DNA from: Falsirhodobacter sp. 20TX0035
GTDB taxonomy: Bacteria > Pseudomonadota > Alphaproteobacteria > Rhodobacterales > Rhodobacteraceae
Direction of reading: 5' to 3'
Assembly: GCF_028307215.1 (NCBI RefSeq)
Contig: NZ_JAQMHV010000019.1
Location: forward strand, 1-42,248
Length of the DNA: 42,248 nucleotides
Part shown: positions 19,583-42,248 of the stretch, piece by piece
Position numbering within the stretch: position 1 is the first letter of the stretch
Layout of the letters: each line of letters begins with the position of its first letter
The notes under the pieces: model-generated
What the model was told of the DNA's origin: nothing
The model's input: only the letters and a program-made list of their open reading frames with translations
Database searches by the model: none
Position numbers and translations under genes: made by a program

Positions 19583-19605
19583 TGTGTGCCAGAAGGAGAC
19601 AATCC

Positions 19606-19953: not shown

Positions 19954-19992
19954 ATGTAGATCAGGCTCAAGTCCTGAAACCTGAGAGTACCA

Positions 19993-20300: not shown

Positions 20301-20356
20301 GCGAGAGCACCTATCATCCCCACATGACCGTTATACGAATCTGCGTAGGGAACGAC

Positions 20357-20518: not shown

Positions 20519-20584
20519 CCATTGGCGTTGACTCTACCTAAGGTTGTGAAGAGGCTTCTTGGACATTGTCCTTTGGAGCACCCC

Positions 20585-20809: not shown

Positions 20810-20847
20810 CCTAGCCTGAGGTCAAGGTTGCCACCGGAAGCAACTCA

Positions 20848-20867
20848 ACGGTCCCTTAAGGGGCCGT
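20848..20867 (+). terminator. Hairpin after Excalibur-like gene
   Basis: An 8-bp stem ACGGTCCC / GGGGCCGT (one U-G pair) with a TTAA loop, 39 bases after the stop. No T-tract follows. Confidence 0.5.
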
Positions 20868-20974
20868 ACTCATATGCGCGGTCATGGTGCTGTCGCTGGT
20901 GATCGTGTTTGGGGCCGTGGGCGGACCAGTGGGCGGAAATCACCGCGGAAGGACGTGAGGTCCAAGAAGCCGCG

Positions 20975-21058
20975 ATGATCGAGCCGCAATGCGCGGATCT
21001 TGATACCGAGGAGCTGTTCGACATGCTTCGCGAGGAACGTCAGCGGAGGGCCAGCTAA
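20975..21058 (+). CDS. Short ORF, possibly the end of a broken gene
   Basis: A 27-residue ORF (MIEPQCADLDTEELFDMLRE and REERQRRAS-type end) whose TAA overlaps the next ATG. The same frame is open upstream as WADQWAEITAEGREVQEA. The sequence just before, in another frame, encodes a hydrophobic MVLSLVIVFGAV. One frameshift would join them into a membrane-anchored helical protein, so this may be a pseudogene remnant. Confidence 0.35.
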   Translation: MIEPQCADLDTEELFDMLREERQRRAS

Positions 21059-21558
21059 TGGCCTTCACCAAGACGGACCGGCAGAAGATCATCGACGGCT
21101 ACCTTGCGGCGACTGGCAGCAATCAGTTCGTGCCCAGTGAGTTCATCGACTGGCTGGGCGAACATCCCGAGCACGAAGCACACGAGTGGTTCTTCGGGCA
21201 GGGGGATGAGGCCGCGGCGCGCGAACACCGGATTGCCATGGCGCGGCAGATGGCTAGCGGCCTACGGATCGTTGCGCGCGTAAACGCCATGCCTGAGGCC
21301 ACGTCGACGGTCAACGTTCGGGTGCGCGAGTTTCCGGCTCTGGTCTCACCGGTCGCCGGACGGAAGGAAGGTGGTGGCTACTCGCACTTTCATCCAGACG
21401 ATCCGGAAATGGTCGCTGAACTACGGCGTCAGGGCGCAGTTGCCCTGCGCGGCTGGCTGGCTCGCTTCGGCGGGGTGGCTGATGTGGCAGGTGTCGACGT
21501 GACGCCGATCGAAGAAATCGCGGCGTCCTTGGATGGCCGTGTGGTGGATGCGGCTTAG
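21058..21558 (+). CDS. Hypothetical protein
   Basis: A 166-residue protein. The first half has KIIDGYLAATGSNQFVPSEF, IDWLGEHPEHEAHEWFFG and AAREHRIAMARQMASGLRIV, a pattern I associate with hypothetical proteins recurring in Rhodobacteraceae genomes and prophages. The second half has FPALVSPVAGR and a QGAVALRGWLARFGG helix. Function is unknown. Good codon and domain regularity make it a confident gene. It is followed immediately by the ~5-bp repeat tract. Confidence 0.7.
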   Translation: MAFTKTDRQKIIDGYLAATGSNQFVPSEFIDWLGEHPEHEAHEWFFGQGDEAAAREHRIAMARQMASGLRIVARVNAMPEATSTVNVRVREFPALVSPVAGRKEGGGYSHFHPDDPEMVAELRRQGAVALRGWLARFGGVADVAGVDVTPIEEIAASLDGRVVDAA

Positions 21559-21830
21559 GCTGCGCCCGCTGGTCGAGGTAAGGCGGTCTTGGCAACGCGA
21601 GCCGTGGCTAGGCCCGGTAAGGCGGGGTATGGCGGTCTAGGTTAGATAAGGCGCGACTTGGTTAGGTACGTCGAGGCGGTCATGGTGAGGCACGGCGCCG
21701 CAAGACGAGGCTAGGCAGGGCACGGTCGGGCTAGGCGGTCGAGTTGAGGCGCGCTCAAGAAAGGTGCGGCTTGTCCAGGAAGGCGGTCGTGGCGTGACTA
21801 GTTAAGGCACGGCGCTTCGAGTTCAGGCGA
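21559..21830. repeat. Degenerate ~5-bp (NGGCN-like) repeat tract
   Basis: About 270 non-coding bases built from imperfect pentamers such as AAGGC, TAGGC, TGGCG, CGGTA and GAGGC, all G-rich on the + strand. Longer units recur: AGGCGGTC at about 21581, 21674, 21733 and 21781, and GGCACGGCG twice. GGC/GGT spacing is mostly 5 or a multiple of it, with occasional phase slips. Both strands lack an extended ORF with normal composition. Similar AGGCA-type pentamer arrays occur in some phages with no known role. Confidence 0.7.
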
Positions 21831-21846
21831 TCAGTTACTTCCCACG

Positions 21847-21875
21847 GCAGGCGCCCCCCCAGCGGGCCGCCTTTT
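21847..21875 (+). terminator. Possible terminator after repeat tract
   Basis: GGCGCCC and GGGCCGCC can pair with one bulged base around CCCCAGC, and TTTT follows at 21872-21875. A weak but plausible intrinsic terminator. Confidence 0.35.
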
Positions 21876-21898
21876 GATCTTCGGGTGATAGTAGAAAC

Positions 21899-22165
21899 CT
21901 AATCAGCCCCGCAGATTTCTTTGATACGCGCGAACTGAGCTCTGCTCTGGAAAAGCATTAATTCCGATGACGAAAGGACACCTTTTTCCTGTTCGCCTCC
22001 ATCGCCATAGGCTTGGGTCAAGCCCCGAAAAAGCAACTCTTGTGAACCCAGCATGAAGTCAGCGGCCGCAACTATTTCGCGGCACTCGGTCGGCTCCGGT
22101 GTTGGCATTTGACCGAATGAGGGAGTTGCGATGACGGCAATGGCTGCGGCGATACGAAATCTCAT
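21899..22165 (-). CDS. Small secreted protein
   Basis: An 88-residue precursor starting at ATG 22165 with AAGGAA upstream. Signal peptide MRFRIAAAIAVIATPSFGQ, then MPTPEPTECREIVAAADFML, a helical middle and a CGAD end; the two Cys may form a disulfide. It is likely periplasmic. The start lies only 17 bases from the divergent gp10 start, so there is almost no room for separate promoters. Confidence 0.65.
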   Translation of the reverse strand: MRFRIAAAIAVIATPSFGQMPTPEPTECREIVAAADFMLGSQELLFRGLTQAYGDGGEQEKGVLSSSELMLFQSRAQFARIKEICGAD

Positions 22166-22182
22166 GAAGGTTCCTTTTCCGA

Positions 22183-30023: not shown

Positions 30024-31241
30024 ATGGCGCTGCCGAAAACCCGGGTCACGGGGCGACTGCCCTTGCCCGATGATCAGATCTGGCTGGGGAGCTACGTCGA
30101 GTTTCAGCTGACGGGCGTCGACACCGACAAGGCCAGCAATGATGTTGTGATGCCGGCGGCGCTTCCGGTTGCGCTGAATGGCGAGGGTCGGATCGACACC
30201 ACCCTGTGGCCGAACACCCGAAGCGAACAAGGCACCAGCTACCGCGTGACCGTGCACCTGATGTCCCCGGTCACGCGCCGCACGTCGCCCTTCCTTCTGG
30301 GCAAGATCGTGGTGCCGGCCGTGGTCAGCAGCGCGTCCGTGGATCTGACGGACCTGCTGGCGATGGAGGCCCCGGAGCCGACCGTTCCGGACCTGCTGGC
30401 CCAGACCTTGGCGGCCGCCGCCCGTGCCGTCGCTAACGCCGACTCGATCGACGACAACGCCGAGAAGGCCGCCGCCAGCGCATTGGCGTCACAGGGCAGC
30501 GCGTTGCGGGCTGACGGCAGCGAGAAAGCGGCCGCGGCCAGCGCGAAGCAGGCGGCGGACACCGCGTCCTCCGTTGGCATCGTCATCGCCACGCAAGTCG
30601 ACGCCGAGGTGGGGTCCGACAACGGCAAACTGATGACCCCGCTCCGGTCCTATCAGTCCTTCCTGAAGCACTATGGCGACCGGCTGGCCACGGCCGCCCA
30701 GGTGATCGCGGGCACGGCCACCAATCTGATCGTGACCCCGGCCAGCCTGCCGGCGTGGCTGTCGAGCCGGCTGGCCACCCGGGCCGAGGCCGAGGCGGGC
30801 ACCGACGCCGAGAAGCTGATGACCCCGCTTAAGGTCGAGCAATACGTGACCAAGTTTCTGGGCACGTGGCTCACCGGCAAGACCGCGACTGCCGCGCAGG
30901 CCGCGGCGGGCGCGGCGACGGATCGGCTCATGACGCCGTTGGCCACGGAGCAGCACATGCTGGCCAACGCCCTCGGCTGGGGGCAGACCTGGCAAGATAT
31001 GACAGACCAGCGGCTGTACGGGACCATTTATCAGAACACCACGGGACGTCCCATTCAGGTCAGCACCTACGGCGGCGGGGACTTCGAGGTGTCGCCTGAC
31101 GGGTCTGTATGGGTCGTGGTGCGGCAGTCCCAGACCATCAACGACGGCAACCGCAACTTCGTGGCGGTGATCGTTCCGCACAACCACTTTTATCGCATGT
31201 CAGGCAGTGGGTCCGCCCGCAGCTGGTCGGAGCTTCGCTAA
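30024..31241 (+). CDS. Tail fibre 1
   Basis: A 405-residue fibre. ATG 30024 has GGAG nine bases upstream; ATG 30012 has none and abuts the terminator. Residues 1-85 form an adaptor domain (MALPKTRVTGRLPLPDDQIW, TDKASNDVVMPA, IDTTLWPNTRS) nearly repeated in the next gene. An Ala-rich coiled coil follows (AAAARAVANADSIDDNAEKA). Then three repeats contain GxxxxxLMTPLxxxQ (SDNGKLMTPL, TDAEKLMTPL, ATDRLMTPL). The last ~90 residues (GRPIQVSTYGGGDFEVSPDG) are a probable receptor-binding tip. Confidence 0.82.
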   Translation: MALPKTRVTGRLPLPDDQIWLGSYVEFQLTGVDTDKASNDVVMPAALPVALNGEGRIDTTLWPNTRSEQGTSYRVTVHLMSPVTRRTSPFLLGKIVVPAVVSSASVDLTDLLAMEAPEPTVPDLLAQTLAAAARAVANADSIDDNAEKAAASALASQGSALRADGSEKAAAASAKQAADTASSVGIVIATQVDAEVGSDNGKLMTPLRSYQSFLKHYGDRLATAAQVIAGTATNLIVTPASLPAWLSSRLATRAEAEAGTDAEKLMTPLKVEQYVTKFLGTWLTGKTATAAQAAAGAATDRLMTPLATEQHMLANALGWGQTWQDMTDQRLYGTIYQNTTGRPIQVSTYGGGDFEVSPDGSVWVVVRQSQTINDGNRNFVAVIVPHNHFYRMSGSGSARSWSELR

Positions 31242-33433
31242 TGGCACTCACGAAAACCACCGTCACCGGCCGCGTGCCCCTGCCGACCGATCTGGTGCTG
31301 CCCTATGGGCAGATCTGGTTCACCCTGCGCAGCCTGGATGTGGACAAGGCCAGCAGGAACGTCCTGATGCCCGTCACGGTCACGGCCGCCGTGGGCAAGG
31401 ATGGCACCTTCCGCATCGACCTGTGGCCGAACGCGCGCGGCGATCGCGGCACGGTCTACGACGTCTCCGCTCACCTGAAGGTTGGAGCGGGCCGGCCTGA
31501 CCTTGCTGTTCCGATGGGGCCTGTCGTCGTTCCTGAAGCCGGGCCGGTAGATATTTCAGCCCTGTTGCAGATCCCGGTCAGCGCCCCCACTCCGCCGGAT
31601 GTCTTGGCGCAGGTGCTGGCCGCCGCGGCCGTGACCGAGGGGGTGCAGGCGAGTGCGGCGCAGGTGCGGCAGGATCGGATTGCGACAGAAAACGCGGCCG
31701 CGGCGGCTGGCAATGCGCTGCCCGCCAAATACACCCGTGCCACCAAGGCGCTTCTGGATGCTGTTCAAGGAGCCGCCGCCAACGACATCGGCTTCGTGAC
31801 GGCCCCGGAGGCCAGCGGGGGCGGCTACTACAGCTACAGCGGGACGGCGTGGGTCTACATCGGGCAGGGAGCGCTGGCCGGGAAGGCCGATGCCATCGCT
31901 CTCACTGCGCTGGAGAAGAGCATCGAGCAGCAGTTCCGGCCCAAGGTCGACCCCGGGAAGATCGGACTGATCCTCGCCACCGATGCCGCGAACAAGCCGC
32001 TGCTGGCCATCGACCAGAATGGCCGCATTCTCGGTGACTTCGTGATCCCGGAAAGCGATGAGCCGGAAGTGCCGCCGGTGGAGTTTCCGGTATCCGGCGA
32101 CCCGGGCGAACATCTGGTCGATCTGTTCGTGGACGAGTCGGGCCATACTCTTCTAGCGATCGATACGCGGACCGGTACGCTCTGGCCGCCCACAAGCCCG
32201 GATGAGGAGGAAACGCCACCTCCCGTCGGCGGCACGACGGTCGAGTTCTACGAGCCTGCGTGGCTTGGGAATGCATGGCAGGCCATCAAGAGCGACGGTG
32301 TCGGCCGGTTCCTGTCGGATGCATGGCGCGGCAAGACCATCGGCTATGAAGATCGCAACGGGAAGATCCTGGCGCAGACGCCGTCCGTCGCGGTCGGCGT
32401 GGCCGCCTTCGGCGGTGGCGCGTCCGGGGTGGCCGCTTCCACGAAGGAACCCTACCGCTGGCACCTCGTGAACGAGGCTCTGGCACAGCCGGAGCGGCCG
32501 GGGGCGGCTCAGGCCTCGGCCGCCGCATGGCTGGACCGGCAGGGTGCGCTAGCCCGGGCGTGGCACACCATGATCGCCGTGACCGAGGCGGTGCCCAGCA
32601 CGGTCGAGGCAGACGCGCTGGAAGGCTCGGCAAAACGGACAGCCCTCATGACGCGGATCGCTGCGGCCGTGGCTGCGGCGGAAGCCTTCGGCAAGACGGT
32701 GGTGTTCGATCGGCTGCACCTTTCCCTTTTGGAGGGGGCGCCGGCCACGTTAGAGCTGACGGCCGACAGCAACTACGCGGCGGTTGGGAACAGCCTGCGG
32801 CTCGCCATCGCGGAGACGACCGGGCAGGGCGAGGCCCCCGCCGTCGTGGTGTCCCAATCGGCCGGCACCCGGAGCAATGGCGCCAGCGAGGTCATCCTGG
32901 CCGAGGGGCGGCTGCACATTCGGCACTTCAGCCTTGGCTTCCTTGTCACGACACCGCGCTACCCTTTCGCTCTGCAGGCGGGGACGGCGGGCACCCTGAC
33001 AGCGGACGCCGCTCTGCGCCTGGCAGAGATCGAAGCACATGCCTTGGAGGCCGTGCAGGCGGGCGGAGAATGGTATCCTCCGTCGCTGGAGACGGCCACT
33101 CGGGCCGGGGCGGTCATCACCGCGCGGTTCTACACCCTGTCGTCGCTGGTGTTGGACGATCCGACCAAACACGGCTTCGCAGTGGATGGCGTGACTAACG
33201 GCGCCACGATCACCAGTGTAACCGTCAACGGCGATCTGGCGACCATCACCATGTCGGCCGTGCCGACCGGCACGCTGACGCTCCGCTACGCCTTTGGTGA
33301 AACTGCCGACCGCGGCGACGGCTTCCCGGCCAACCGTGGCTCGCTGCGCGACAGCTGGTCGGCGCCGTCCGCCAATTTCCCGAACGAAACCCTCTATCGC
33401 CGCGCCCTCTCGGGCCGGGTCGCTGTGCAATAA
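31241..33433 (+). CDS. Tail fibre 2 with esterase-like C-terminus
   Basis: A 730-residue protein from ATG 31241, one base inside the preceding stop. Residues 1-90 repeat the fibre 1 adaptor (MALTKTTVTGRVPLPTDLVL, DKASRNVLMPV, IDLWPNARGDRGT). A helical region (YSYSGTAWVYIGQGALAGKA) and a Pro/Glu-rich linker lead to a C-terminal ~370 residues (RWHLVNEALAQPERPG, VVVSQSAGTRSNGASEVILA, SLGFLVTTPRYPFAL). That part resembles phage domains of the sialate O-acetylesterase/SGNH type, but no catalytic triad is sure. It may deacetylate surface glycan. Confidence 0.7.
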   Translation: MALTKTTVTGRVPLPTDLVLPYGQIWFTLRSLDVDKASRNVLMPVTVTAAVGKDGTFRIDLWPNARGDRGTVYDVSAHLKVGAGRPDLAVPMGPVVVPEAGPVDISALLQIPVSAPTPPDVLAQVLAAAAVTEGVQASAAQVRQDRIATENAAAAAGNALPAKYTRATKALLDAVQGAAANDIGFVTAPEASGGGYYSYSGTAWVYIGQGALAGKADAIALTALEKSIEQQFRPKVDPGKIGLILATDAANKPLLAIDQNGRILGDFVIPESDEPEVPPVEFPVSGDPGEHLVDLFVDESGHTLLAIDTRTGTLWPPTSPDEEETPPPVGGTTVEFYEPAWLGNAWQAIKSDGVGRFLSDAWRGKTIGYEDRNGKILAQTPSVAVGVAAFGGGASGVAASTKEPYRWHLVNEALAQPERPGAAQASAAAWLDRQGALARAWHTMIAVTEAVPSTVEADALEGSAKRTALMTRIAAAVAAAEAFGKTVVFDRLHLSLLEGAPATLELTADSNYAAVGNSLRLAIAETTGQGEAPAVVVSQSAGTRSNGASEVILAEGRLHIRHFSLGFLVTTPRYPFALQAGTAGTLTADAALRLAEIEAHALEAVQAGGEWYPPSLETATRAGAVITARFYTLSSLVLDDPTKHGFAVDGVTNGATITSVTVNGDLATITMSAVPTGTLTLRYAFGETADRGDGFPANRGSLRDSWSAPSANFPNETLYRRALSGRVAVQ

Positions 33434-33444: not shown

Positions 33445-34218
33445 ATGGCCTTCGTGCTTCCCTTCACCGTTCCGAACCCGCCCATCAACCTCGTGGACAT
33501 CGATGCCATTCTTGGTGCGGTTCCGGGCGTGGTGTCTTTTCACACGGTCTACCAAGCCAAGGCGGTGATCTCGGCGACGGCCTCCCGTGTTCCTGCGCGC
33601 ATTGGCGGCGTGGACATGGTGCTTGACCTGACTGCGAACGCGGGCACCGCGACAGCGGCCGCCGCCCGCTGGGTCAAAGACGGGCCCTGCAATATCGCCG
33701 ACTTCTTGCGCGGGGTGGACCGGTACAAGGCGGTGCTTCCGACGCCCGGCAACGTGTTCACGATCTTGGAGCGCGGCTACTGCGGCCGGGTTGGACAGAC
33801 CGATAACACCGGCGGCGTCAGCTGGGCCATCAACTTCGGCACGTTCCAGATCAGGGGAGTGCCTCTGTTCAACGGCGCGTCTGGGGTCGCCGTCGGCACG
33901 TCGGGCTTCACCAGCATGGTGACCGGTGCCGCGATCGACGAGAAGCTCTACTACGCCGCGACTGTTGTGGATCTGACCAACAAAAAGGTGAGCATGTGTG
34001 TGAACGCTTCCGCAACAACCGCGTGGGTGACGAAGGACGTGGCCGCATTGGCGACACAGACGGTGACGTCGGTGACCTTGGACTTCGGGGGGGCGGCGAA
34101 CCAGGTGGTCGCGGGGCCTGTCAGCGATCTTGCGCTCTTTGCCGGCGATATCCGCACGACAGCACCGAACCTGATGGCGCGGTGGGAGAACTACGCCAAG
34201 ACAGCGTACGTGGGGTGA
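33445..34218 (+). CDS. Tail-associated protein, possible lectin-like fold
   Basis: A 257-residue, strand-rich protein. Segments GGVSWAINFGTFQIRGVPLF and KLYYAATVVDLTNKKVSMCV, and a RWENYAKTAYVG end resemble the jelly-roll (LamG/concanavalin-like) proteins that end with an A-R-x-x-x-Y motif, as also seen in the gene at 40634-41392. It lies between the fibres and the sulfatase. No signal peptide. Likely a glycan-binding virion part, by inference. Confidence 0.55.
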   Translation: MAFVLPFTVPNPPINLVDIDAILGAVPGVVSFHTVYQAKAVISATASRVPARIGGVDMVLDLTANAGTATAAAARWVKDGPCNIADFLRGVDRYKAVLPTPGNVFTILERGYCGRVGQTDNTGGVSWAINFGTFQIRGVPLFNGASGVAVGTSGFTSMVTGAAIDEKLYYAATVVDLTNKKVSMCVNASATTAWVTKDVAALATQTVTSVTLDFGGAANQVVAGPVSDLALFAGDIRTTAPNLMARWENYAKTAYVG

Positions 34219-34222: not shown

Positions 34223-36448
34223 GTGAACCACCTTTTCATCGCAACGGACGACCTGTTCCAGTACCTGGACTTCCTGCGTCCCAACGGCCGATTTGGCGTG
34301 GCGCCCTTCGGGGTGACGCCGGACCTGCCGAACCTCGCGCGTCTGGAAGCCCGGTCCACCATCTTCCGCCGCGCCTCGGCCGTGGTGCCGGTCTGTGGCC
34401 CGAGCCGGGCAGCCATCATGTCCGGTTATTCGCCCGCCGAGAGCGGCGTCCTGTCCAACGAGACGCCTTGGGACACCTTCCTCGGGCCGCACCGCCTCTG
34501 GACCTACGACCTAAAGCGCGCGGGCTACTACATGGGCACCGTGGGCAAGATCTTCCACGGATACGAGCCGGAGAGCCAGAGCACCTACCGCGTGCTTTAT
34601 GACAACGAGCGGTACGTGAACACGTCACATCCCGGCGGAGCTTGGACGGAGAACGGCGGGATCGACGGGCGCGGCTATGTCGGAAACGAGGACGCCTTCT
34701 TCGACAGCATGGTCGCGCGCCACACGGTCCAGTTCCTCTCGACCTATGACGGGTCCAAGCCCTTCCACTGGGAGGTCGGCTTCCGCGCGCCGCACGTGCC
34801 TTGGTACGCGCCACAGCGGATCTACGACGCCTTCGACACCAGCCAGATCATCAAGCCGCAGGACTGGCCGCTGTCTTGGACCCTGCTGCCGTTCACGCAG
34901 GAACAGATGCGCGGCGACTTCGCCGCCGGCCTCAACGTCGGCTTCGATCTCGTGACGGCAAACCCCTCGACGTGGACCGCTTCCATGACGACGGCCTGGC
35001 GCAACTCCGTCCGCAACTACATCGTCAACATCCTCTGGCTGGACGAGAAGCTGGGCGAGGTGCTGGATGCGCTGGAAGCCAGCCCCTTTGCCGACAACAC
35101 CATGATCACGCTCTGGTCGGATCACGGCTACCATCTCGGCGACAAGGGCAAGTTCCACAAGATGGACCTGTGGGAGGAGGCCTGCAACGCCTGCTACATG
35201 GTGTCGATGCCCGGTCAGACGACGCGCCGGGACGTGTTCGATCCGGTCAGCCTGATCGACATCGGGCCCACGGCCATGGACTGTCTCGGCCTGCCGGTGC
35301 GGGAAGGCCTACGGGGTGAAAGCCTCAAGCTCTATCTGGACGGCGGCAGCCTTCCGGTGCGGACGATCCCGTCCTTCTGGTTCGGGTCGGCCTCGGCCGC
35401 GATCGGCGACTACCGGATCACGGTCTACCAGGACGGCTCGGCCGAATACTTTAACATCAAGGCCGATCCGTGGCTGGCGAACAACCTCGCCGGCAAGCAC
35501 GCCAGCTATGCGGCCGCGCGCGAGGCGCTGCTGGCCTGCTGCTTCGACTGGGGCATGCAGCTGGTGGAAGAGGGCGTGTCCATCATCGCAGGCTCCCCGC
35601 TGGCCTCCTATCTCGGCTATGATGTCGATGTGACCAGCCCGACCACCAGCTTCGTCGTGGCGGGAGATGTGGAGGTCCGCGCGAAGTCGCCCGGCTATCA
35701 GAAGCTGTGGAAGGTGTCGAAGCGCGGCACCCAGAACCTGATGCGCCTCTCCGAGGGCGTTGAGGATGTGGAGTTCGTCAACCCGGTGGGCAACCACACG
35801 CTCTATGCCAACGGCCTGAACAACACGGTGATCGTCAGCCTCGGCTTCGAGGTCGACAGCGCGATCACCCTGCACCTGGGTGACGGTGACGACGTGGTGC
35901 GCCAGCACGAGGGCCATTACGACGACGTGGTGCCCGCCTTCCTTGGCAACAAGGTCCGGGTCATCGCCTATGGCGGTGCCGGCAATGACATCCTGCGGTC
36001 GGGCATCCGGCGGGGGGCGCTGCTCTATGGCGAGGAGGGAGACGACACGCTCTACGGCTCGCAGGAGGCGGACACCCTCTACGGTGGTGCCGGAAACGAC
36101 GTGGTGGAGGGGTTCGACGGGAACGACCTGATCTACGCCGAGGCGGGCAAGGACACGATCCGGGGCGGAAACGGAGCGGACACCATCACTGTCACCGGCG
36201 GCGAGCACCTGATCAGCGGGGGCGCGGGCAACGACACGTTCGCGATCCATCGGACGGGCCACGTCCAGACGATCACCGACTTCGCGGCCGGGGACGTTCT
36301 CAGCTTGGCAGATTGGTCCGGCATCGCTCCGGCGACGGTCGCTCAGGTCGGCGCGGACGTGGAGGTGACGGCAGCGATGGAGAAGATCGTCTGCTGCAAC
36401 ACCACCGTCGCCGTCGTAAAGGCCGCCATCACGGGGGTAGGCACATGA
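34223..36448 (+). CDS. Sulfatase with C-terminal RTX calcium-binding repeats
   Basis: A 741-residue protein from GTG 34223. Residues about 1-470 are a type I sulfatase: FIATDD (metal ligands D9, D10), CGPSRAAIMSG with C58 as the residue turned into formylglycine (C-x-P-S-R), GTVGKIFHGY, and SDHGYHLGDKGKFHK with D300, H301 and the Lys expected at K310 or K313. The order matches iduronate-2-sulfatase-like enzymes. Residues about 584-680 hold RTX nonapeptides (GGAGNDILR, YGEEGDDTLYG, GGAGNDVVEG, GGNGADTI, GGAGNDTF), then a TDFAAGDVL motif. Activity needs a host formylglycine-forming enzyme. No signal peptide, so virion-borne or type I secreted. Confidence 0.88.
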   Translation: MNHLFIATDDLFQYLDFLRPNGRFGVAPFGVTPDLPNLARLEARSTIFRRASAVVPVCGPSRAAIMSGYSPAESGVLSNETPWDTFLGPHRLWTYDLKRAGYYMGTVGKIFHGYEPESQSTYRVLYDNERYVNTSHPGGAWTENGGIDGRGYVGNEDAFFDSMVARHTVQFLSTYDGSKPFHWEVGFRAPHVPWYAPQRIYDAFDTSQIIKPQDWPLSWTLLPFTQEQMRGDFAAGLNVGFDLVTANPSTWTASMTTAWRNSVRNYIVNILWLDEKLGEVLDALEASPFADNTMITLWSDHGYHLGDKGKFHKMDLWEEACNACYMVSMPGQTTRRDVFDPVSLIDIGPTAMDCLGLPVREGLRGESLKLYLDGGSLPVRTIPSFWFGSASAAIGDYRITVYQDGSAEYFNIKADPWLANNLAGKHASYAAAREALLACCFDWGMQLVEEGVSIIAGSPLASYLGYDVDVTSPTTSFVVAGDVEVRAKSPGYQKLWKVSKRGTQNLMRLSEGVEDVEFVNPVGNHTLYANGLNNTVIVSLGFEVDSAITLHLGDGDDVVRQHEGHYDDVVPAFLGNKVRVIAYGGAGNDILRSGIRRGALLYGEEGDDTLYGSQEADTLYGGAGNDVVEGFDGNDLIYAEAGKDTIRGGNGADTITVTGGEHLISGGAGNDTFAIHRTGHVQTITDFAAGDVLSLADWSGIAPATVAQVGADVEVTAAMEKIVCCNTTVAVVKAAITGVGT

Positions 36449-36909
36449 AGGCCGTACGCTTTCTCTTCAGCATGATCGCCGACTTCTTCTCGGTCATGGA
36501 CCGAGAGGGACGGGGGATCGAATACCACATGAGCAAGGTCATGTTCTTCATGGGGCTGATCCTGATCCTGCCCGAGAACACGCTTATGCTTCCCACCTAC
36601 CGCCAGATGTACGAGAGCGGACTGTCCGAGACCCTCGCCGCGGCCGTCCTGTGCGGCTTCGGGGGCTGGAGGTTCCTCGCTCTCTACGTGAATGGCTTCC
36701 ACTTCCGGACGCCTCGTTGGCGCGCGGCCATGTCCTTCTGCTCGTGCATGTTCTTCGGGATGCTGTCGTACAACGTCTGGTTCGACTACCTGTCAGGCGT
36801 CTCCGTCGCGCCCGGCTTCCTTCTCGCCATCTATCCTGCCTTCGTCATAGCCGAGTTCCGCGCGGCTTCTCGCCTGCGTTGGGAGCGCATCCACTATGCC
36901 ACCCATTGA
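36445..36909 (+). CDS. Multi-pass membrane protein
   Basis: A 154-residue protein in an ATGA overlap with the sulfatase gene. About four hydrophobic helices are visible (SKVMFFMGLILILPENTLML, LAAAVLCGFGGWRFLALYV, AAMSFCSCMFFGMLSYNVWF, SGVSVAPGFLLAIYPAFVIA), with a basic C-terminus. Its place at the end of the late operon would suit a holin-type protein, but I recognise no family. Confidence 0.6.
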   Translation: MKAVRFLFSMIADFFSVMDREGRGIEYHMSKVMFFMGLILILPENTLMLPTYRQMYESGLSETLAAAVLCGFGGWRFLALYVNGFHFRTPRWRAAMSFCSCMFFGMLSYNVWFDYLSGVSVAPGFLLAIYPAFVIAEFRAASRLRWERIHYATH

Positions 36910-37219
36910 TGCCTTGACGGAACAATCCTTGCGCGAATACGGCCTGATCGGAACGCTGGCGCTGCTCGGCTTCATCTTCGCCATCGTCTACATGTGGAAG
37001 CGTCCGCCGCCGGAGCCGCACGCCTCGCCGATGGAGGCGGTGAAGGAGAACGCCAAGCTGATCCCCTTCGTTCTGGAGGAGGTGCGGCAGCTCGGCCGGA
37101 AGCTGGACGATGTAATGCGCAGGATCGATCAGATGGAGCGCCGCTTCGACCAGCTGGAGGAGCGATCCGAGCGCATGGAGCGATTGGGCGAGGTCATCAA
37201 GGACCGGCTGCCCCGATAA
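36896..37219 (+). CDS. Membrane-anchored coiled-coil protein
   Basis: A 107-residue protein overlapping the upstream gene by 14 bases. One transmembrane helix near residues 18-35 (LIGTLALLGFIFAIVYMWKR) is followed by a long charged coiled coil (LGRKLDDVMRRIDQMERRFD, QLEERSERMERLGEV). The topology resembles spanin or holin-accessory proteins. Together with the preceding gene it is the only candidate lysis unit seen; no endolysin is present. Confidence 0.6.
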   Translation: MPPIDALTEQSLREYGLIGTLALLGFIFAIVYMWKRPPPEPHASPMEAVKENAKLIPFVLEEVRQLGRKLDDVMRRIDQMERRFDQLEERSERMERLGEVIKDRLPR

Positions 37220-37252
37220 CGGCAATCGATCGGTTGATTATTGCACATCGAG

Positions 37253-37906
37253 TTAGCGAAGGGTGGATTGGCCCTTCGTCGTGATGCTTATAGAGAGCCA
37301 CTTCCTCCACTTGGTTTCTTCCTCCACTTCCGGATTAACAAACCCGTCGGTCTTGAATTCAGATATTTCTTTAAGACGGAATTTGGGAAAAACCTCATTA
37401 AGAATTTTAGCCAGTCTTAAGGCTGACTCGGTTCTTACGTAGTTGATTTGTCCCCAATCTGGATCTGTATATGTGTGTATGACCGTGAAGCTCCCTGTGA
37501 CTGGACCGACATTCATTCCGGATGCAATTAAAGCGTCTCGCAATGAGTTCGCGAAATCTGCGGTTTCCTGACCGCTAGCCTTTGTTATCTCAATCACTGC
37601 CCCCCTAAGACGCGGATCATCTAATCGCGATATCAAATCTGAGCGTTGTTTGCCTGAAAGAACGCGTGATCCGATGGTTCGATAGACCTCCCCCAAATCC
37701 TGCTGTGCTTTCGTAAGCTCCTGCTCTTTCTGCTTCTGCAAGCGGTTAGACATCAAGTCCGCCCTTACCGCCAACAAAACGCTAAGGACCGAAAAAGCAG
37801 CAACAACAAGACCCCAAGTTCTGTTGTCCTCAAGAAGAAGGAACGCAAGTATGGCGCCGATGGCAGACGCTGCATAGGATGCAAGTTTCATTATCCAAGA
37901 ATTCAT
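37253..37906 (-). CDS. Membrane protein of unknown function (accessory gene)
   Basis: A 217-residue protein on the minus strand, converging with the late operon. Two transmembrane helices lie near the N-terminus (ASYAASAIGAILAFLLLEDN; LVVAAFSVLSVLLAVRADLM), then a coiled coil (NRLQKQKEQELTKAQQDLGE) and a cytoplasmic alpha/beta domain with ALRLAKILNEVFPKFRL. Its base composition is clearly richer in A and T than the structural genes. A two-helix anchor with a cytosolic sensor-like domain is a layout also used by anti-phage membrane effectors, but no known family is recognised. Confidence 0.7.
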   Translation of the reverse strand: MNSWIMKLASYAASAIGAILAFLLLEDNRTWGLVVAAFSVLSVLLAVRADLMSNRLQKQKEQELTKAQQDLGEVYRTIGSRVLSGKQRSDLISRLDDPRLRGAVIEITKASGQETADFANSLRDALIASGMNVGPVTGSFTVIHTYTDPDWGQINYVRTESALRLAKILNEVFPKFRLKEISEFKTDGFVNPEVEEETKWRKWLSISITTKGQSTLR

Positions 37907-37943
37907 TGCAGATCCTAAAAACGCAAACGACGCGTATCAGTTT

Positions 37944-38348
37944 TCACTTACACTCATGCCAAATTCGTATTTCGTCGCAGAGTAGACTTATGAAGTGCCC
38001 AGAAAATATCGGATCGGATGCGCCATTAGGATAAAAGTCAACGCAATCCAGTTCTTCTAAAACCGGGTCAAAGCACCAGCGCCCGATGACCTCACCGTCC
38101 CTAGTTACGACGTCGCCTTCAGGTTGACTAGGATACCCTATCAGGTTGATTGGAAAGCGATAGGGGTTAGTCTCTAGCTTGTCGATCACGGCACGCGCGG
38201 CAGCTAGTGCTTCTAAAGGCGTGATACTGTCACCAGAAGCGTGCTCCCGCCCATAGCCAGTGATCTTCCAAGTGGATAGTGGATGCAGCTGTGAGGCCGG
38301 ATCGTCCAAGTGGATCACGTAGCCACGGTATTCCTGCTGAAATGGCAT
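37944..38348 (-). CDS. Soluble hypothetical protein (accessory gene)
   Basis: A 134-residue protein starting at ATG 38348 with AGAGG seven bases upstream. It has EYRGYVIHLDDPASQLHPLS, WKITGYGREHASGDSITPLE and ALAAARAVIDKLE: a strand-rich start and a helix. The second half has GDVVTRDGEVIGRWCFDPVL. It is 37 bases upstream of the membrane protein gene in the same orientation, so the two may be co-expressed. No family recognised. Confidence 0.65.
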   Translation of the reverse strand: MPFQQEYRGYVIHLDDPASQLHPLSTWKITGYGREHASGDSITPLEALAAARAVIDKLETNPYRFPINLIGYPSQPEGDVVTRDGEVIGRWCFDPVLEELDCVDFYPNGASDPIFSGHFISLLCDEIRIWHECK

Positions 38349-38373
38349 TTTGACCTCTGAGATAGTGCAGGCG

Positions 38374-38402
38374 GCGGGGGTCGCCGGACCGCCCCCGCTT
38401 TT
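38374..38402 (+). terminator. Intrinsic terminator, + orientation
   Basis: Perfect 7-bp stem GCGGGGG (38374-38380) / CCCCCGC (38392-38398) with an 11-base loop that can extend pairing, followed by TTTT. It sits just upstream of the minus-strand gene at 38348 and would stop + read-through coming from the late operon. Confidence 0.65.
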
Positions 38403-38467
38403 GCCCGTATGTTGCCTGCCTCAGTCACTCAAATTTGACGGTACTGTATTTGCGTTCAATGGGTTGG

Positions 38468-38731
38468 TTAGCGAACTGCAACATGCACTTCGGCCGGATC
38501 GGAGGCCGTCGTCGCGGGGGTACCGACTTTCTTAGGGTACCTGCGCCTCCTCATATTAAGGTACGGCGGAGCGGCCGGGAGCGGCCTTTGCGAGAGACAG
38601 GTGTCATCCGGGGTAGGGAGGCGCTTGATAAGCTCCTCAAGAGCGGCGGCAACTTCCGTGAAACCGTCGCTGCGAGCGCACGCACTCAAGCTCAGCAGGG
38701 GATTCGCCATCAGGTTTGCTCGATCGATCAT
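38468..38731 (-). CDS. Small accessory protein, LSLSACA family (copy A)
   Basis: An 87-residue protein from ATG 38731, which has GGAGG eight bases upstream. Residues 10-42 (PLLSLSACARSDGFTEVAAA then LEELIKRLPTP) are clearly related to the protein at 39067-39294. The rest is basic and probably disordered (LNMRRRRYPKK). The conserved part is one amphipathic helix pair. Function unknown. Confidence 0.6.
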   Translation of the reverse strand: MIDRANLMANPLLSLSACARSDGFTEVAAALEELIKRLPTPDDTCLSQRPLPAAPPYLNMRRRRYPKKVGTPATTASDPAEVHVAVR

Positions 38732-38914
38732 ATTGGATCCTCCATATGACAGACTTGCGACACCAAGGTTCACAATGCATCAATAGGCAAGATCCCGTAG
38801 GCTGCCACACTTCCAGCGTGCGCAAAACTGCCGATCAACCGTCAATACTTAATAAGAAGCTGGACGACGCACATGCTTCAAGTACAATTCCACAACCGCA
38901 AGTGGAGTTGCGTC

Positions 38915-39157
38915 ATGGACTACATCTACGGCTTAGAAGACCAGGTAGTGGCAGTCCGTCGAGCTGGCTCTCTGGCACTTCTCAAGCTGGCTCACATGCT
39001 GGAAGAGCAGGGTGTTCCGCGCTCTGTCCTAGTTGCCGCGTTGGGCGAACTTCGGACTGATTCTGATCAGGAAACGGCCCGCATCGCGCAGTGTTCATGC
39101 ACCGCATTTTTGCGGACGAGCGATGAGGTGTGCACGAGTTTCACGGGAGCGGCTTGA
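38915..39157 (+). CDS. Small accessory protein
   Basis: An 80-residue ORF from ATG 38915 (GGAG nine bases upstream). It starts MDYIYGLEDQVVAVRRAGSL, then ALLKLAHMLEEQGVPRSVL, faintly similar in layout to the LSLSACA proteins. Its 3' end overlaps the minus-strand copy B by about 90 bases, so at least one of the two may be shorter than drawn. Confidence 0.45.
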   Translation: MDYIYGLEDQVVAVRRAGSLALLKLAHMLEEQGVPRSVLVAALGELRTDSDQETARIAQCSCTAFLRTSDEVCTSFTGAA

Positions 39158-39294
39158 ACCTCATCATGCAAAGGCGTCGGAATGATGCCGATCAGTCGGA
39201 CGAGTTCCTCCGCCAGCTTCGGCAGCCCAGCGGCATAGGCACAGGCGCTTAGGCTAAGAAGCCCGCCCTGCAATCCCTTGTGGCGTTCGTCCAT
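39067..39294 (-). CDS. Small accessory protein, LSLSACA family (copy B)
   Basis: A 75-residue protein from ATG 39294 with GAGGG about six bases upstream. GLLSLSACAYAAGLPKLAEE and LVRLIGIIPTP align with copy A at 38468-38731. The C-terminal part overlaps the + gene ending at 39157. Upstream at 39349-39362 is a palindrome that may control it. Confidence 0.6.
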   Translation of the reverse strand: MDERHKGLQGGLLSLSACAYAAGLPKLAEELVRLIGIIPTPLHDEVQAAPVKLVHTSSLVRKNAVHEHCAMRAVS

Positions 39295-39803
39295 ATCGTC
39301 CCTCATGCGCTTCTCGGCGATTTTGTGCGCATATATGCAGAAACGTCATTACCATTTGGTAAAAGTTTGCAGGGTCGTCAATCCCGCGTTGAACCTTGGC
39401 TTATTTGCCACACTTGGCAGGCGTCTGTCACAAGGCTGATTCAAGCCAAGAACACACCTGTGTCTAGGATGTCCTCCACCCAACCTTTTGACCACACACA
39501 TATTCCTTTGCTTCAGATCATCGAGGTCTAGGAGCAGCGGTTGCCGGGCAGGATCGAATTCGACTCATCATGCACAATTAATTTTCCGTTAACGCCGCGC
39601 TGGCACTCTGCTCGTGGGTCCGCTGTGATGCCGTTAGGTTTGCACCGGGCCGCAGGATGCAACCACGACGATCCTCTTTAGCGCCAACGTTCATATGTCG
39701 GATCGAGTGCACTTCGCATCCGGTCGGCTTCCTTATCTCTGGAGAACATCATGCAGGTATCGGACCAGCGTCGGGTGGCGCTGCACGAGCGGGGATGCCG
39801 CAC
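39295..39803. other. Intergenic region between accessory genes and second fibre cluster
   Basis: About 510 bases with no convincing gene; open frames here have poor composition and no ribosome-binding site. It is AT-richer than the phage operons and contains one notable palindrome (see next entry). It probably holds the promoter for the minus-strand gene at 39294 and the promoter for the fibre genes from 39804 (around 39540-39600, with ATTAATTTTCCGTTAAC). Confidence 0.45.
39349..39362. promoter_or_regulatory. Operator-like palindrome TTACCATTTGGTAA
   Basis: A 14-bp inverted repeat, TTACCA and TGGTAA around TT, 55 bases upstream of the minus-strand copy B start. Its core ACCATTTGGT differs at one base from ACCAATTGGT of the perfect operator at 6631-6642. 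Confidence 0.5.
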
Positions 39804-40634
39804 ATGAACATCACCTTGAAGCAGGGCAACACCGCCCCGGCGCTGCGCCACAAGCTGGAAGTGGCGGGCGATCTGGCCGGAGCCTCGGCCGTCTTCACCA
39901 TGACCCACAACGACCGCGTCATCGTGAACCGTGCCGAGGCGACCATTGAGGACGGGCATGCGGTCTATCAGTGGCAGGCGGGCGATACGGGCGTGTCGGG
40001 GGTGATGCGGGGCGAGTTTACGATCCTCTACGCGGACGGCACCTCGGAAACAGATCCCGAGAGCGGCTACATCCAGATTACCATCGAGCGCGGGCTCCAG
40101 TCTGCCAGCGGAACGGCGCCGGTACCGACCTATCCCGGATCGGGAGAGGCGGGCCGCGGCATTGCCTCCACCAGCTACGATCCTGACACGGGGATCGTGA
40201 CCTTCGCCTACACTGACAACACCATGTCGCGGACGGGGGATCTTCGCGGGGCACCCGGAGCCGCTGGATCCGCGGGCCCTCAAGGTGTGCCGGGGCCAAA
40301 AGGCGATGTCGGCGCGCAGGGGCCTCAAGGGGAAAAGGGCGATGCGGGCGATGTAGGCCCGACCGGCTCCCGAGGCCCTAAGGGGGATGCCGGAGCAACG
40401 GGCGCTGTCGGTCCCAAAGGCGATGCTGGTGCCACGGGCGATGTCGGACCAGTCGGGCCGAAAGGCGACAGCGGGGCGACTGGTCTGAAAGGTGACACAG
40501 GCGCGACAGGGCCCAAGGGCGATACTGGCGCAACAGGCGCGGCCGGCGCCAGCGTGACCATCACGACCGTGACGACGCAGGCGGCCTATGACGCGGCTGT
40601 GCCAGGGCCCACCGAACTGATCGTGAGGGTCTGA
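39804..40634 (+). CDS. BppU-like fibre with collagen repeats
   Basis: A 276-residue protein from ATG 39804 (an in-frame ATG at 39795 is possible). Residues 1-100 fit the BppU N-terminal domain: MNITLKQGNTAPALRHKLEV, FTMTHNDRVIVNRAEATIED, AVYQWQAGDTGVSGVMRGEF. About 149-248 is an unbroken Gly-X-Y collagen tract with KGD and GATG repeats (GPKGDAGATGAVGPKGDAGA). A short strand-rich end (VTTQAAYDAAVPGPTEL) follows. It is expected to be a trimeric fibre shaft attached to the tail. One base overlap with the next gene. Confidence 0.85.
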   Translation: MNITLKQGNTAPALRHKLEVAGDLAGASAVFTMTHNDRVIVNRAEATIEDGHAVYQWQAGDTGVSGVMRGEFTILYADGTSETDPESGYIQITIERGLQSASGTAPVPTYPGSGEAGRGIASTSYDPDTGIVTFAYTDNTMSRTGDLRGAPGAAGSAGPQGVPGPKGDVGAQGPQGEKGDAGDVGPTGSRGPKGDAGATGAVGPKGDAGATGDVGPVGPKGDSGATGLKGDTGATGPKGDTGATGAAGASVTITTVTTQAAYDAAVPGPTELIVRV

Positions 40635-41392
40635 TGCCGAAGCTGGACCTGACGACGGCGAAGCAGATCAAGGGCGCGGCGGGCGAGGTGCTGGCCCTGA
40701 AGGGGTCGGGCTTTGCCTGGGCCAAGCCGATGGCGTGGACGCCGGCCAGCATCGCCGACGCCTCGTGGGTCGACATGACGGACGCCAGCCGCCGGACACT
40801 GACGAACGGTCGCGTGTCGCGCATCTCGCCCAGATCCGGGACGATCGGGCTGGCGCAGACGGTCGTCGAGCGGCAACCTGGCCTCGATGGCGTGATCGCC
40901 GGAAAGGCGGTGCCCCGGTTCGCGACGTCGCCCCACCAGCTGGCGTTCGACGCGGTCCTGCCCAATGAGGCGACAATCGTCGCGATCCTGCAATGTGTCG
41001 CGGGCTTATCGCCCTTGCGGGCGCTGGTCGGCTTCGGGCTGGACGACACGACGTCGCCGGACACCGTCCCGATCGTGCCCATCGGCGGGCAGAACTCCAC
41101 CAGCACGGCCTGGCAGCGATACCGGGGTGTTCTGACATGGCGCGTCAACGGTGTGCTCGTGTCACCCGCAACCCGGGCCGAAGCGCACGACGCGCTGTTC
41201 GCCAGCGGCAAGGCGTGCCTGCAGGAAATGCACTTCACCGACACGTGGCTGATCCGCGCCCTTGGCGGGTCGCGCTTCGATTACCGCTTGGGTGGCGACA
41301 TCGCCGAGGTCGTCATCGTGCCCCGTGCCCTGACCGCCGCGGAGCGCTCCAATCTCTCGACTTACGCCCAACGTTACATGATTGGTACCTAG
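40634..41392 (+). CDS. LamG/lectin-like tail protein
   Basis: A 252-residue protein from ATG 40634. It begins KLDLTTAKQIKGAAGEVLAL, then a concanavalin-like jelly roll: ADASWVDMTDASRRTLTNGR, LAFDAVLPNEATIVAILQCV, LTWRVNGVLVSPATR, and the typical final segment DIAEVVIVPRALTAAERSNL followed by STYAQRYMIGT. It likely forms the glycan-binding tip that works with the collagen-like fibre upstream. Confidence 0.72.
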   Translation: MPKLDLTTAKQIKGAAGEVLALKGSGFAWAKPMAWTPASIADASWVDMTDASRRTLTNGRVSRISPRSGTIGLAQTVVERQPGLDGVIAGKAVPRFATSPHQLAFDAVLPNEATIVAILQCVAGLSPLRALVGFGLDDTTSPDTVPIVPIGGQNSTSTAWQRYRGVLTWRVNGVLVSPATRAEAHDALFASGKACLQEMHFTDTWLIRALGGSRFDYRLGGDIAEVVIVPRALTAAERSNLSTYAQRYMIGT

Positions 41393-41483
41393 CGATGAGC
41401 AATCTATAGAAGATTTTACCTTTACCCAGTCGCCTTGCGCGTGTTTCATTCTAGTGGATAAGCCAGCAACGCGAGGGACATGG

Positions 41484-42116
41484 ATGCCGATCTTCAAGGT
41501 AGGTGAGCAGGTGTGCTTCTTCGCACACGTTCCTAAGTGCGCCGGCACGAGCATTGAGGATTACCTTGCGAAACGTTTCGGGCAGCTGGCGTTCCAGAAC
41601 CGCAAATTCAAGCCGGGCCACAGCAAGAACTGGCTCGCGAACTCGCCGCAGCATATCCCCGCGCCGCAACTGTCTACCCTGTTCCCGCAAGGGTTCTTCG
41701 ACGCTGGCTTTGCCTTTGTGCGCAATCCTGTCGACCGCTTCCTGAGCGCTTTCAACTTTCACCAGGTGAAGCGGGGGAAGATCGCGGCAAACGTCACGCC
41801 GCAGCAGTGGTTGACGGATTTGCCGAAATTCGATCCCGAGCGCCATGCTCTCTATGATAACCACTTCCTCCCACAGGTGACGTTCGTTCCCGAGTGGTGT
41901 GAGGTCTTCAAGCTGGAGGACGGCTTTGACGGCTTCTATGCCTGGCTTGAGGCGCTGACGGGCGAGCAGACGTCTGCCCAGGTGGGTCAGAAGCTTGCGG
42001 GCAAGTATGAGAACCCCGAACTGAATGCTGAATTCGTGGCGAGCATTGAGCGGTTATACACAGAGGACTACGACGCGTTTGGATACGAAAAGCGGGGAAG
42101 CATGAAGCTGGCCTGA
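41484..42116 (+). CDS. PAPS-dependent sulfotransferase
   Basis: A 210-residue enzyme of the Sulfotransfer_2 type. ATG 41484 has GAGGG eight bases upstream. FFAHVPKCAGTSIEDYL (PKCAGTS at 17-23) is the 5'-phosphosulfate loop; FAFVRNPVDRFLSAFNF (R80 and S88) is the 3'-phosphate-binding part. It transfers sulfate from PAPS to a carbohydrate hydroxyl. No signal peptide or membrane helix, so cytoplasmic. It is the last gene of the window and follows a lectin-like tail protein by 92 bases. Nucleotide composition is slightly lower in GC than the structural genes. Confidence 0.88.
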   Translation: MPIFKVGEQVCFFAHVPKCAGTSIEDYLAKRFGQLAFQNRKFKPGHSKNWLANSPQHIPAPQLSTLFPQGFFDAGFAFVRNPVDRFLSAFNFHQVKRGKIAANVTPQQWLTDLPKFDPERHALYDNHFLPQVTFVPEWCEVFKLEDGFDGFYAWLEALTGEQTSAQVGQKLAGKYENPELNAEFVASIERLYTEDYDAFGYEKRGSMKLA

Positions 42117-42248
42117 CCAGCAGGCATCAGGCGCGAGGATGATCAACACGCGACCTTCTTCCCGAATCAACTAAAGTTCTGCAAATGTTCATGCATGTGG
42201 ACACGCAAGCTAACATGGCCCGGCGAGGGAAATCACACCGACTGGCTG

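Follow-up and report, generated by a model that had tools for sequence, protein, structure and literature searches.

A tail-cassette sulfatase and a variable-slot sulfotransferase in a Falsirhodobacter prophage as candidate modifiers of sulfated surface polysaccharide

Introduction

A prophage that encodes both a sulfatase and a sulfotransferase close to tail fibre genes raises the question of whether a phage can edit the sulfated glycans of its host in both directions, stripping sulfate at entry and adding it in the lysogen, as the original prediction for this locus proposed. Here, the window is the whole stretch of DNA analysed, the 42,248 nucleotides of an entire 42-kb contig of Falsirhodobacter sp. 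20TX0035. It encodes HK97-type phage genes, including those for terminase, portal, major head protein, tape measure, distal tail and J-type tail proteins; given this head and tail gene set, calling it a prophage is fair, with integration and borders lying outside the view. Because of an apparent 7.1-kb insertion at 15055-22182, the prophage may be defective. In this article, we describe the two enzymes, the modules that carry them and the extent to which they belong together.

The sulfatase and its tail cassette

The sulfatase is the last gene of a three-gene cassette:

31241..33433, + strand, fibB tail fibre (PHROG 4201 tail fiber, 48.1 bits)
33445..34218, + strand, fibC, fibre-like, 257 aa, lying after fibB and before the sulfatase (same-position homologues in phage-type cassettes)
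34223..36448, + strand, sulfatase (aa ~1-450) with C-terminal RTX repeats and a catalytic-type Cys58 in CGPSR (PF00884, PF00353)

The sulfatase ORF (34223-36448, 741 aa) looks intact and is of the Cys type. The predicted sulfatase with a CGPSR motif was confirmed by a match to Pfam Sulfatase PF00884 (98.8 bits, E 4.6e-28), above the gathering score of 25, and by the presence of the motif VCGPSRAAIMSG. The protein also carries C-terminal RTX repeats (PF00353, 60.4 bits), a part that had gone unmentioned. Among 11 aligned sulfatases, C58, P60, R62, D9, K109, H112, H191, D300, H301 and K313 are invariant and D10 is nearly so; we take these residues, which include the C-x-P-x-R signature and the conserved D, K and H positions, to be catalytic. 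The predicted structure has a model pLDDT of 79.7.

The gene order fibB-fibC-sulfatase recurs in seven distinct phage-borne loci (the window, L075, L076, L099 from a P. onubensis prophage, L212, L214 and L216), so that the sulfatase, rightly described as lying beside fibres, directly follows fibre genes and is part of a tail-fibre module. Homology of fibC links six of the seven, the fibC of L212 being the one not linked. A gene of fibC size also lies on the same-strain contig C5. The cassette is associated with at least two tail types, J-type with PHROG 5616 in the window and L216, and one with tail proteins of PHROGs 28, 76 and 52, presumably P2-like, in L214. The C-terminal part of fibB (aa ~383-773, counted in the ORF from 31109) is a domain that recurs beside sulfatase genes, a fibB homologue being found near a sulfatase in 20 of the 95 loci searched and in L212, L214 and L216. 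No match to fibB was found among PDB sequences, nor to its C-terminal part (fibB-C) in INPHARED, and an esterase fold considered for fibB-C, having neither match, was dropped.

In a tree that included four phage copies, and two host sulfatases only as long-branch outgroups, the four phage sulfatases and two orphan chromosomal P. onubensis copies form one clade with a support of 100/98. The dN/dS ratio is 0.18 for the L075/L076 sulfatases and 0.09 for L097/L098; together with the C14/C44 sulfotransferases described below, these ratios indicate that three gene pairs of relatives are under purifying selection. The window and L076 sulfatases give 0.65, a value left unused because the simple method does not suit a pair at 48% identity; it lends strong constraint no support. 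Scans of IMG/VR with the window sulfatase, the window sulfotransferase or the five-sequence alignment A1 returned no relative, while alignments A2, A5 and A6 did find relatives; the earlier negatives therefore reflect a limit of the search patterns. The predicted tail cassette ending in a sulfatase, carried by several different phages, is a new observation.

Sulfatase maturation in the hosts

A formylglycine-generating enzyme (FGE, PF03781) is encoded in the host genome (202 bits), where no match to an anaerobic maturase was found. FGE is also present in the genome of the related host G003, and an FGE gene adjoins related sulfatases in two Thioclava records. Among seven examined genomes holding chromosomal-type relatives, FGE was found in G016 and not in the other six (G005, G106, G110, G117, G123 and G135), of which only G117 has an anaerobic maturase above the cut-off. 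Since six relatives' genomes thus lack FGE and five of these also lack the maturase, some members of the family may be matured by another route, or may not be sulfatases.

The sulfotransferase and its variable slot

Downstream of the cassette, the contig continues through small membrane protein genes into a variable region and ends near the lysis genes:

36445..36909, + strand, small membrane protein between the tail and lysis parts (ORF 36313-36909; 72% DNA match to same-strain contig C14)
36896..37219, + strand, membrane/coiled-coil protein of 107 aa, holin-like only in its position (PHROG hemolysin, weak match, E 0.022)
37223..42122, no strand, variable, GC-poor moron slot, GC 0.58, between two stretches conserved among same-strain prophage ends
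39657..40634, + strand, collagen-repeat fibre protein (PF01391 58.5 bits; PHROG tail and tail fiber matches)
40634..41392, + strand, 252-aa protein whose position alone suggests receptor binding (C14 homologue L010, 40% over 218 aa)
41484..42116, + strand, PAPS sulfotransferase (PF03567) with PKCAGTS and VRNPVDRFLSAF motifs (Pfam, PHROG and alignment; paralogues in C14 and C44)
42195..42248 (contig end), + strand, beginning of a 94-aa gene found ahead of the endolysin in contig C44 (matches L011 and L199 at the DNA level)

The slot flanks are 95% identical on the left and, on the right, 92% (C44 right) or 99% (C44 left), and what lies between them differs among C10, C44 left and C44 right. The slot lies outside the structural genes and beside the lysis genes: the 107-aa protein has copies 97-99% identical at both C44 ends (61% in C14), and an endolysin (PF00959) was found in L011. 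The original prediction did not mention this location of the sulfotransferase.

The sulfotransferase ORF (41382-42116) looks intact, and its true start is probably at 41484 (MPI...), common to eight aligned sequences. Its identity, as well as both predicted motifs, held up: PF03567 matches with 48.1 bits (E 2.1e-12; gathering score 22, passed), as does PHROG 3347 'Galactose-3-O-sulfotransferase', of the category moron, with 68.6 bits. Within the alignment of eight, P17, K18, C19 and G21 as well as V79, R80, P82, R85, S88 and A89 are invariant, and the two motifs presumably bind the 5′-phosphosulfate and the 3′-phosphate. A structure model built from two sequences was poor (pLDDT 44.2), and a profile search of the PDB gave weak matches, the best to SULT1C3 (E 0.079). 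The gene had been placed beside fibre or lectin-like genes; the collagen-repeat protein and the 252-aa gene do lie directly upstream, while 'lectin-like' was an impression, the 252-aa protein having no Pfam match.

Paralogues are carried by the same-strain contigs C14, where an Acyl_transf_3 gene adjoins the sulfotransferase, and C44, where it occupies the sibling slot. The dN/dS ratio is 0.10 between these two; the value of 0.25 between the window and C44 copies was set aside, since the simple method does not reach pairs as far apart as this one (48% identity). C14 also has a second sulfotransferase-like gene (L009 8622), left uncounted because its PKCAGTS loop is gone and its main match is to RgpF; nor were genes counted that were judged sulfotransferase-like by eye beside the sulfatase in L098, L103 and L108, which have no Pfam or NCBIfam match. 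Elsewhere, several relatives are found in rhamnose or capsule loci or fused to glycosyltransferases: in the two plasmid records examined, of 23, they lie between rfbB and rfbD or between rfbD and rfbA, one adjoins Glyco_transf_61, and in a viral record one is fused to Glycos_transf_2 and RgpF; the relative L080 (37%) sits among apparent central-metabolism genes, not polysaccharide genes. The sulfotransferase is likely a moron-type gene of lysogenic conversion, with a predicted change of the host surface.

Are the two enzymes a pair?

The possibility that best survives as an alternative to a functional connection, though still on the unlikely side, is coincidence: the sulfatase would serve the tail, and an unrelated moron, the sulfotransferase, would happen to fill an exchangeable slot. 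The two belong to separate modules of different GC (0.655 versus 0.575), and the sibling slot at the left end of C44 holds an RTX and a Hint protein instead. A sulfotransferase is nearby in two of the six assessable phage sulfatase loci, the window and the prophage L076 of G003, where a PF03567 gene lies 0.9 kb from the sulfatase; L216, whose record stops at the sulfatase, was left out. In the other four of the seven distinct phage loci, none was seen in the 5.9-10 kb in view downstream of the sulfatase, and PF03567 was absent from all five viral records with cassette parts, which are fragments. Contig C44 has a sulfotransferase with no sulfatase in view, the contig stopping there. Against coincidence, two in six exceeds the genome-wide expectation of ~0.005 per locus (P ~4e-4; 24 hits, the strongest per genome set aside, in 61.7 Mb of 17 genomes), although this control is too kind because morons gather in prophages.

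The co-occurrence search did not support the single two-way system first proposed. Relatives carrying the genes independently and away from fibres had been named beforehand as evidence against it; such relatives turned up for the sulfotransferase, but the sulfatase showed no such pattern. Each predicted activity is likely taken singly, tail-linked removal of sulfate from surface polysaccharide as well as its addition in the lysogen. With a sulfotransferase near two of six assessable sulfatases, however, the two enzymes do not form an obligate pair, and strip-and-restore coupling is a plausible hypothesis.

It is improbable that the sulfatase-RTX protein acts outside the virion, as an enzyme secreted by the lysogen through type I secretion via its RTX end for sulfate scavenging or the breakdown of algal polysaccharide. 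The RTX C-terminus would suit such a role, as would chromosomal relatives with no phage genes in view and a P. liaowanqingii plasmid on which an orphan cassette adjoins a GH16 gene; the phage copies, however, come after fibre genes on different tails, and fibC belongs to phage-type cassettes and was found in none of the chromosomal-type loci searched. Very unlikely is another formylglycine hydrolase, such as a phosphodiesterase, or an enzyme resembling choline sulfatase with a small-molecule substrate, for although choline sulfatases are the closest solved folds to the model, a weak Phosphodiest match falls under its cut-off and several relatives' hosts lack FGE, the NCBIfam choline-sulfatase profile scores 129 against a cut-off of 433 and the gene is linked to fibres.

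Proposed mechanism and significance

The reading that we favour, and consider about evenly balanced between right and wrong, is that sulfated surface polysaccharide is the target of two phage devices, each evolving on its own. What the sequence shows is the gene content, the motifs, the conserved cassette, the clade, the purifying selection in three gene pairs of relatives and the host FGE. The sulfatase-RTX protein would be produced late, together with the tail, and either be anchored at the tail tip together with fibB and fibC or be released beside virions, its RTX part folding with calcium outside the cell. Host FGE would convert Cys58 to the formylglycine site, which would then remove sulfate esters from capsule or exopolysaccharide, allowing the fibres to bind or the phage to pass. 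The sulfotransferase, from its exchangeable slot close to the lysis genes, would serve lysogenic conversion: with PAPS as donor, it would sulfate a polysaccharide of the lysogenic host, probably a rhamnose-containing one. This would alter both the receptor and the surface charge, and perhaps keep out other phages. We infer virion location, substrate, expression timing and exclusion. The sulfatase might even let a phage's own progeny cope with the decoration added by its own lysogens. A bolder version, which we regard as doubtful, makes sulfate a reversible lock in Rhodobacteraceae phages: the virion sulfatase of a mobile cassette would desulfate the receptor at entry and the prophage sulfotransferase re-sulfate it in the lysogen, such that sulfotransferase prophages would exclude cassette-less competitors while cassette phages still enter.

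If the favoured reading is true, sulfate removal would join the known ways in which phage tails handle surface sugars, and phages of marine bacteria, for which sulfated polysaccharides and attachment by way of rhamnose are important, might use sulfation as a currency when they compete. The cassette also offers a supply of sulfatases, predicted to depend on calcium, along with their defined partner genes. Phage sulfotransferases would gain a testable role in surface conversion; the function in phages of another such family, PF13469, is called unclear in one paper (PMC10580990).

Comparison with known systems

A literature search by title yielded, among the matches listed, no tail-linked sulfatase and no phage system of sulfatase and sulfotransferase. 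The nearest genes are of three kinds. Unannotated gut 'Bacteriophage sp.' records match the sulfatase domain in eight of the nine found (21-29% identity) and only the RTX part in the ninth, with no full-length match to the window sulfatase. The sulfotransferases of the Synechococcus phage ACG-2014f group (45 records; 29-33% identity in the best 40 of 45) are of the same family, PHROG 3347, and no sulfatase match was found in these records. Chromosomal Rhodobacteraceae loci hold fibB-C and sulfatase-RTX genes, the same two domains close together, at 30-36% identity to the window sulfatase in aligned examples; these loci differ in forming a separate clade with no fibC found and no phage genes seen, and in the two cases tested the part ahead of fibB-C has an Esterase match below threshold.

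Phage tailspike depolymerases and deacetylases are tail-module enzymes that alter surface polysaccharide at entry. The window sulfatase is likewise encoded in the tail module and has a predicted action on surface polysaccharide, but it is a predicted formylglycine enzyme that would remove sulfate, has an RTX end and is encoded by its own gene after the fibre genes. Serotype-converting prophage genes encode O-acetyltransferases and glucosyltransferases that decorate the polysaccharide of the lysogen. Like them, the sulfotransferase is a moron in a variable slot, predicted to decorate lysogen polysaccharide; unlike them, it would do so by PAPS-dependent sulfation, which may or may not change phage sensitivity.

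Two sulfate genes on one phage contig

The draft genome of Falsirhodobacter sp. 20TX0035 amounts to 3.23 Mb in 54 contigs, one of which is, in its entirety, the window; we infer the host to belong to the Rhodobacteraceae in the wide sense. The window carries genes for a terminase, portal, major head protein, tape measure, distal tail and J-type protein, and profile matches beside these structural genes confirm that, as first proposed, one prophage encodes both a sulfatase and a sulfotransferase, each a clear member of its family:

34223-36448, sulfatase (PF00884, 98.8 bits) with RTX repeats (PF00353, 60.4 bits)
41484-42116, sulfotransferase (PF03567, 48.1 bits)

In PHROGs, the sulfotransferase is assigned to a moron family; the sulfatase's family there is one of unknown function.

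The contig also holds a 7.1-kb insertion of non-phage genes (15055-22182), some on the minus strand, encoding a GNAT acetyltransferase, a TauE-type exporter, a response regulator, a PAS-HWE histidine kinase, a VTT-domain protein and a PRC barrel. It stands between the tail terminator and gp10, two genes that are neighbours in viral record L213, and its GC content is 0.59 versus 0.66 in the surroundings; the prophage may be interrupted, the segment may be a cargo island, or the assembly may have joined separate stretches here. On a second prophage-like contig of the strain, C5 (L210, L226), stretches of the early region match parts of window 1307-6085 at 85-93% identity; the contig also has a homologue of the tail-fibre gene fibB (48% over 581 aa) and, at its extreme end, a 264-aa gene the size of fibC, the fibre-like gene between fibB and the sulfatase. 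No close second copy of the window portal was found in the strain's own genome.

A fibre-fibre-sulfatase cassette

The strongest new result is a common cassette of fibB, fibC and sulfatase. Sulfatase relatives were drawn from the matches listed for 293 related genomes, from GTDB contigs (at least 79 loci) and from IMG/VR, whose six rows represent five records, four with a sulfatase (L211 and L215 are one record, matching the Paracoccus onubensis locus L099). Of the 95 loci searched, 20 have a homologue of the C-terminal part of fibB (fibB-C) close to the sulfatase; three of the 95 are sulfotransferase loci, and two pairs (L078/L101, L079/L109) are identical places. Most loci that lack this homologue hold more distant sulfatases.

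Seven distinct sulfatase loci are phage-borne (the window, L075, L076, L099, L212, L214 and L216), L075 being a remnant in which a tail gene, fibB, fibC and sulfatase are flanked by host genes. In all seven, the space from fibB to the sulfatase gene is taken up by fibC, an open frame of ~256-294 aa, and phmmer connects these frames, directly or via a P. liaowanqingii gene, in every locus except L212. The tails themselves differ: the tape measure and two tail proteins of L214 fall in PHROGs 28, 76 and 52 and are taken to be P2-like, while L216 and the window share PHROG 5616 proteins, the window's also matching central tail fiber J. A tree of 22 sulfatases, built without L212, L214 and L216, groups its four phage copies and the two orphans from P. 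onubensis in one clade (support 100/98). The proposed tie between sulfatase and tail fibres is supported, and the best account of a cassette retained behind fibres on different tails is that it serves at the tail or in phage release.

The trio is also present on a P. liaowanqingii plasmid (unnamed4; L222 8798-14139), where a gene for a 510-aa hypothetical protein, a relative of fibC (262 aa) and the sulfatase come immediately after a gene for a family 16 glycosyl hydrolase (GH16). The chromosomal-type loci that were searched, with limited sensitivity, yielded no relative of fibC. Two P. onubensis isolates (L097, L098) carry fibB-C and sulfatase in two different chromosomal surroundings with no phage genes in sight, the sulfatases being 95% identical, as if the pair were itself mobile. 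Among chromosomal sulfatase loci, that of Celeribacter halophilus has sulfate-activation-type genes (an APS_kinase fusion and a PAPS_reduct domain; L103 17295-20249), and that of a Thioclava MAG has a gene for formylglycine-generating enzyme (FGE; L108 5588-6589).

Predicted catalytic fitness of the sulfatase

Across 11 aligned sequences, Cys58, Pro60, Arg62, Asp9, Lys109, His112, His191, Asp300, His301 and Lys313 are invariant, and the C-x-P-x-R motif is kept in all 23 sulfatases listed. The AlphaFold model (pLDDT 79.7) has choline sulfatases as its closest PDB folds (TM-score by target length ~0.66); in BFVD, seven matches have E up to 0.001, of which six are giant-virus proteins and the seventh comes from a tailed phage, with a description that refers to RTX repeats. 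Two pairs of relatives are under purifying selection (dN/dS 0.18 and 0.09). FGE, predicted to convert Cys58, has one match in the strain's own genome and is present in 6 of 13 genomes tested; of the seven that carry chromosomal-type relatives, six lack it. An anaerobic maturase exceeded the cut-off only in G016 and G117 among 10 genomes. This distribution makes sulfatase activity plausible in the prophage hosts (the window strain and G003, the related host of prophage L076) and less certain for the chromosomal relatives.

The sulfotransferase and its likely substrate

The sulfotransferase, with a GC content of 0.575 versus 0.655 for the sulfatase, lies in a slot between a 107-aa and a 94-aa gene. 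Contig C44 of the same strain has the 107-aa gene at both ends, and its bounding DNA is 92-99% identical to the window, with different contents:

Window: collagen fibre, 252-aa protein, sulfotransferase
C44, right: sulfotransferase 48% identical to the window's
C44, left (L199 1538-6768): 979-aa RTX protein and 366-aa Hint_2 protein, without sulfotransferase

A further sulfotransferase (46%) adjoins an Acyl_transf_3 gene on contig C14, and the C14 and C44 copies are under purifying selection (dN/dS 0.10). Judged by sequence, the window sulfotransferase is a moron. Another C14 gene (L009 8622-9911) is a fusion in which a rhamnan synthesis F domain accompanies a sulfotransferase-like N-terminus that has lost its phosphosulfate loop.

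The protein search matched 35 of 293 genomes; matches also came from 23 plasmid records, the surroundings being examined for two of these. The G003 relative (55%) adjoins a Glyco_transf_61 gene near genes read as dTDP-rhamnose genes; on a Tateyamaria plasmid the relative (41%) is flanked by rfbB and rfbD, near capsule genes and an Stf0 sulfotransferase, and on a Thioclava plasmid the relative (31%) is flanked by rfbD and rfbA, with an Stf0 sulfotransferase and an acyltransferase. The L093 relative has a Wzy_C-like neighbour scoring just under the cut-off, and a protein in IMG/VR record L095 combines the family with Glycos_transf_2 and RgpF. PMC8224337 describes the rhamnose operon as crucial for Phaeobacter inhibens biofilm formation and locates one in a Shimia haliotis prophage. 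The neighbours of the L080 relative, read as central-metabolism genes, count against a polysaccharide substrate; our best guess nonetheless is that the enzyme would sulfate a rhamnose-containing surface polysaccharide.

Pairing of the two genes

Prophage L076 provides a second case of co-occurrence, with a diverged PF03567 gene (47.5 bits) 0.9 kb from its sulfatase. No sulfotransferase was found within 5.9-10 kb downstream of the sulfatase in L075, L099, L212 or L214, and the L216 record stops at the sulfatase, so the pair is seen at two of six assessable loci; viral records L211, L212 and L214 had no PF03567 match, and a local profile of the family, run over a set of other sulfatase loci, detected no sulfotransferase there. 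Taking 41 PF03567 hits in 17 genomes (61.7 Mb), reduced to 24 by removing the strongest per genome, chance would give ~0.005 per locus and P ~4e-4 for two of six, a figure that overstates the case because morons gather in prophages. The pairing is recurrent and not obligate. The original prediction of two-way editing of surface sulfate is partly supported: the sulfatase side gains from the shared fibre cassette, and the link between the two genes is weakened by the presence of a sulfotransferase near only two of six assessable phage sulfatases. The boldest reading sees sulfate as a possible lock, which lysogens would close and virions would open.

Comparison with known phage systems

Among the matches listed in the open-access literature (titles and abstract openings), no tail-borne sulfatase cassette was found, the one paper listed for both enzymes in connection with prophages deals with Salmonella polyphosphate, and the sulfatases mentioned in the accessible part of PMC9853417 are bacterial, not phage. 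Phage sulfatases are not unheard of: tblastn retrieved nine gut 'Bacteriophage sp.' records, eight of which match in the sulfatase part at 21-29% identity. No record is annotated, and no match extends over the full length. In Burkholderia, the cases reported carry the name PAPS reductase/sulfotransferase (PMC10269572, PMC2920897). Phage sulfotransferases are likewise reported in PMC11309003 and PMC10580990, the latter from a family different from that of the window.
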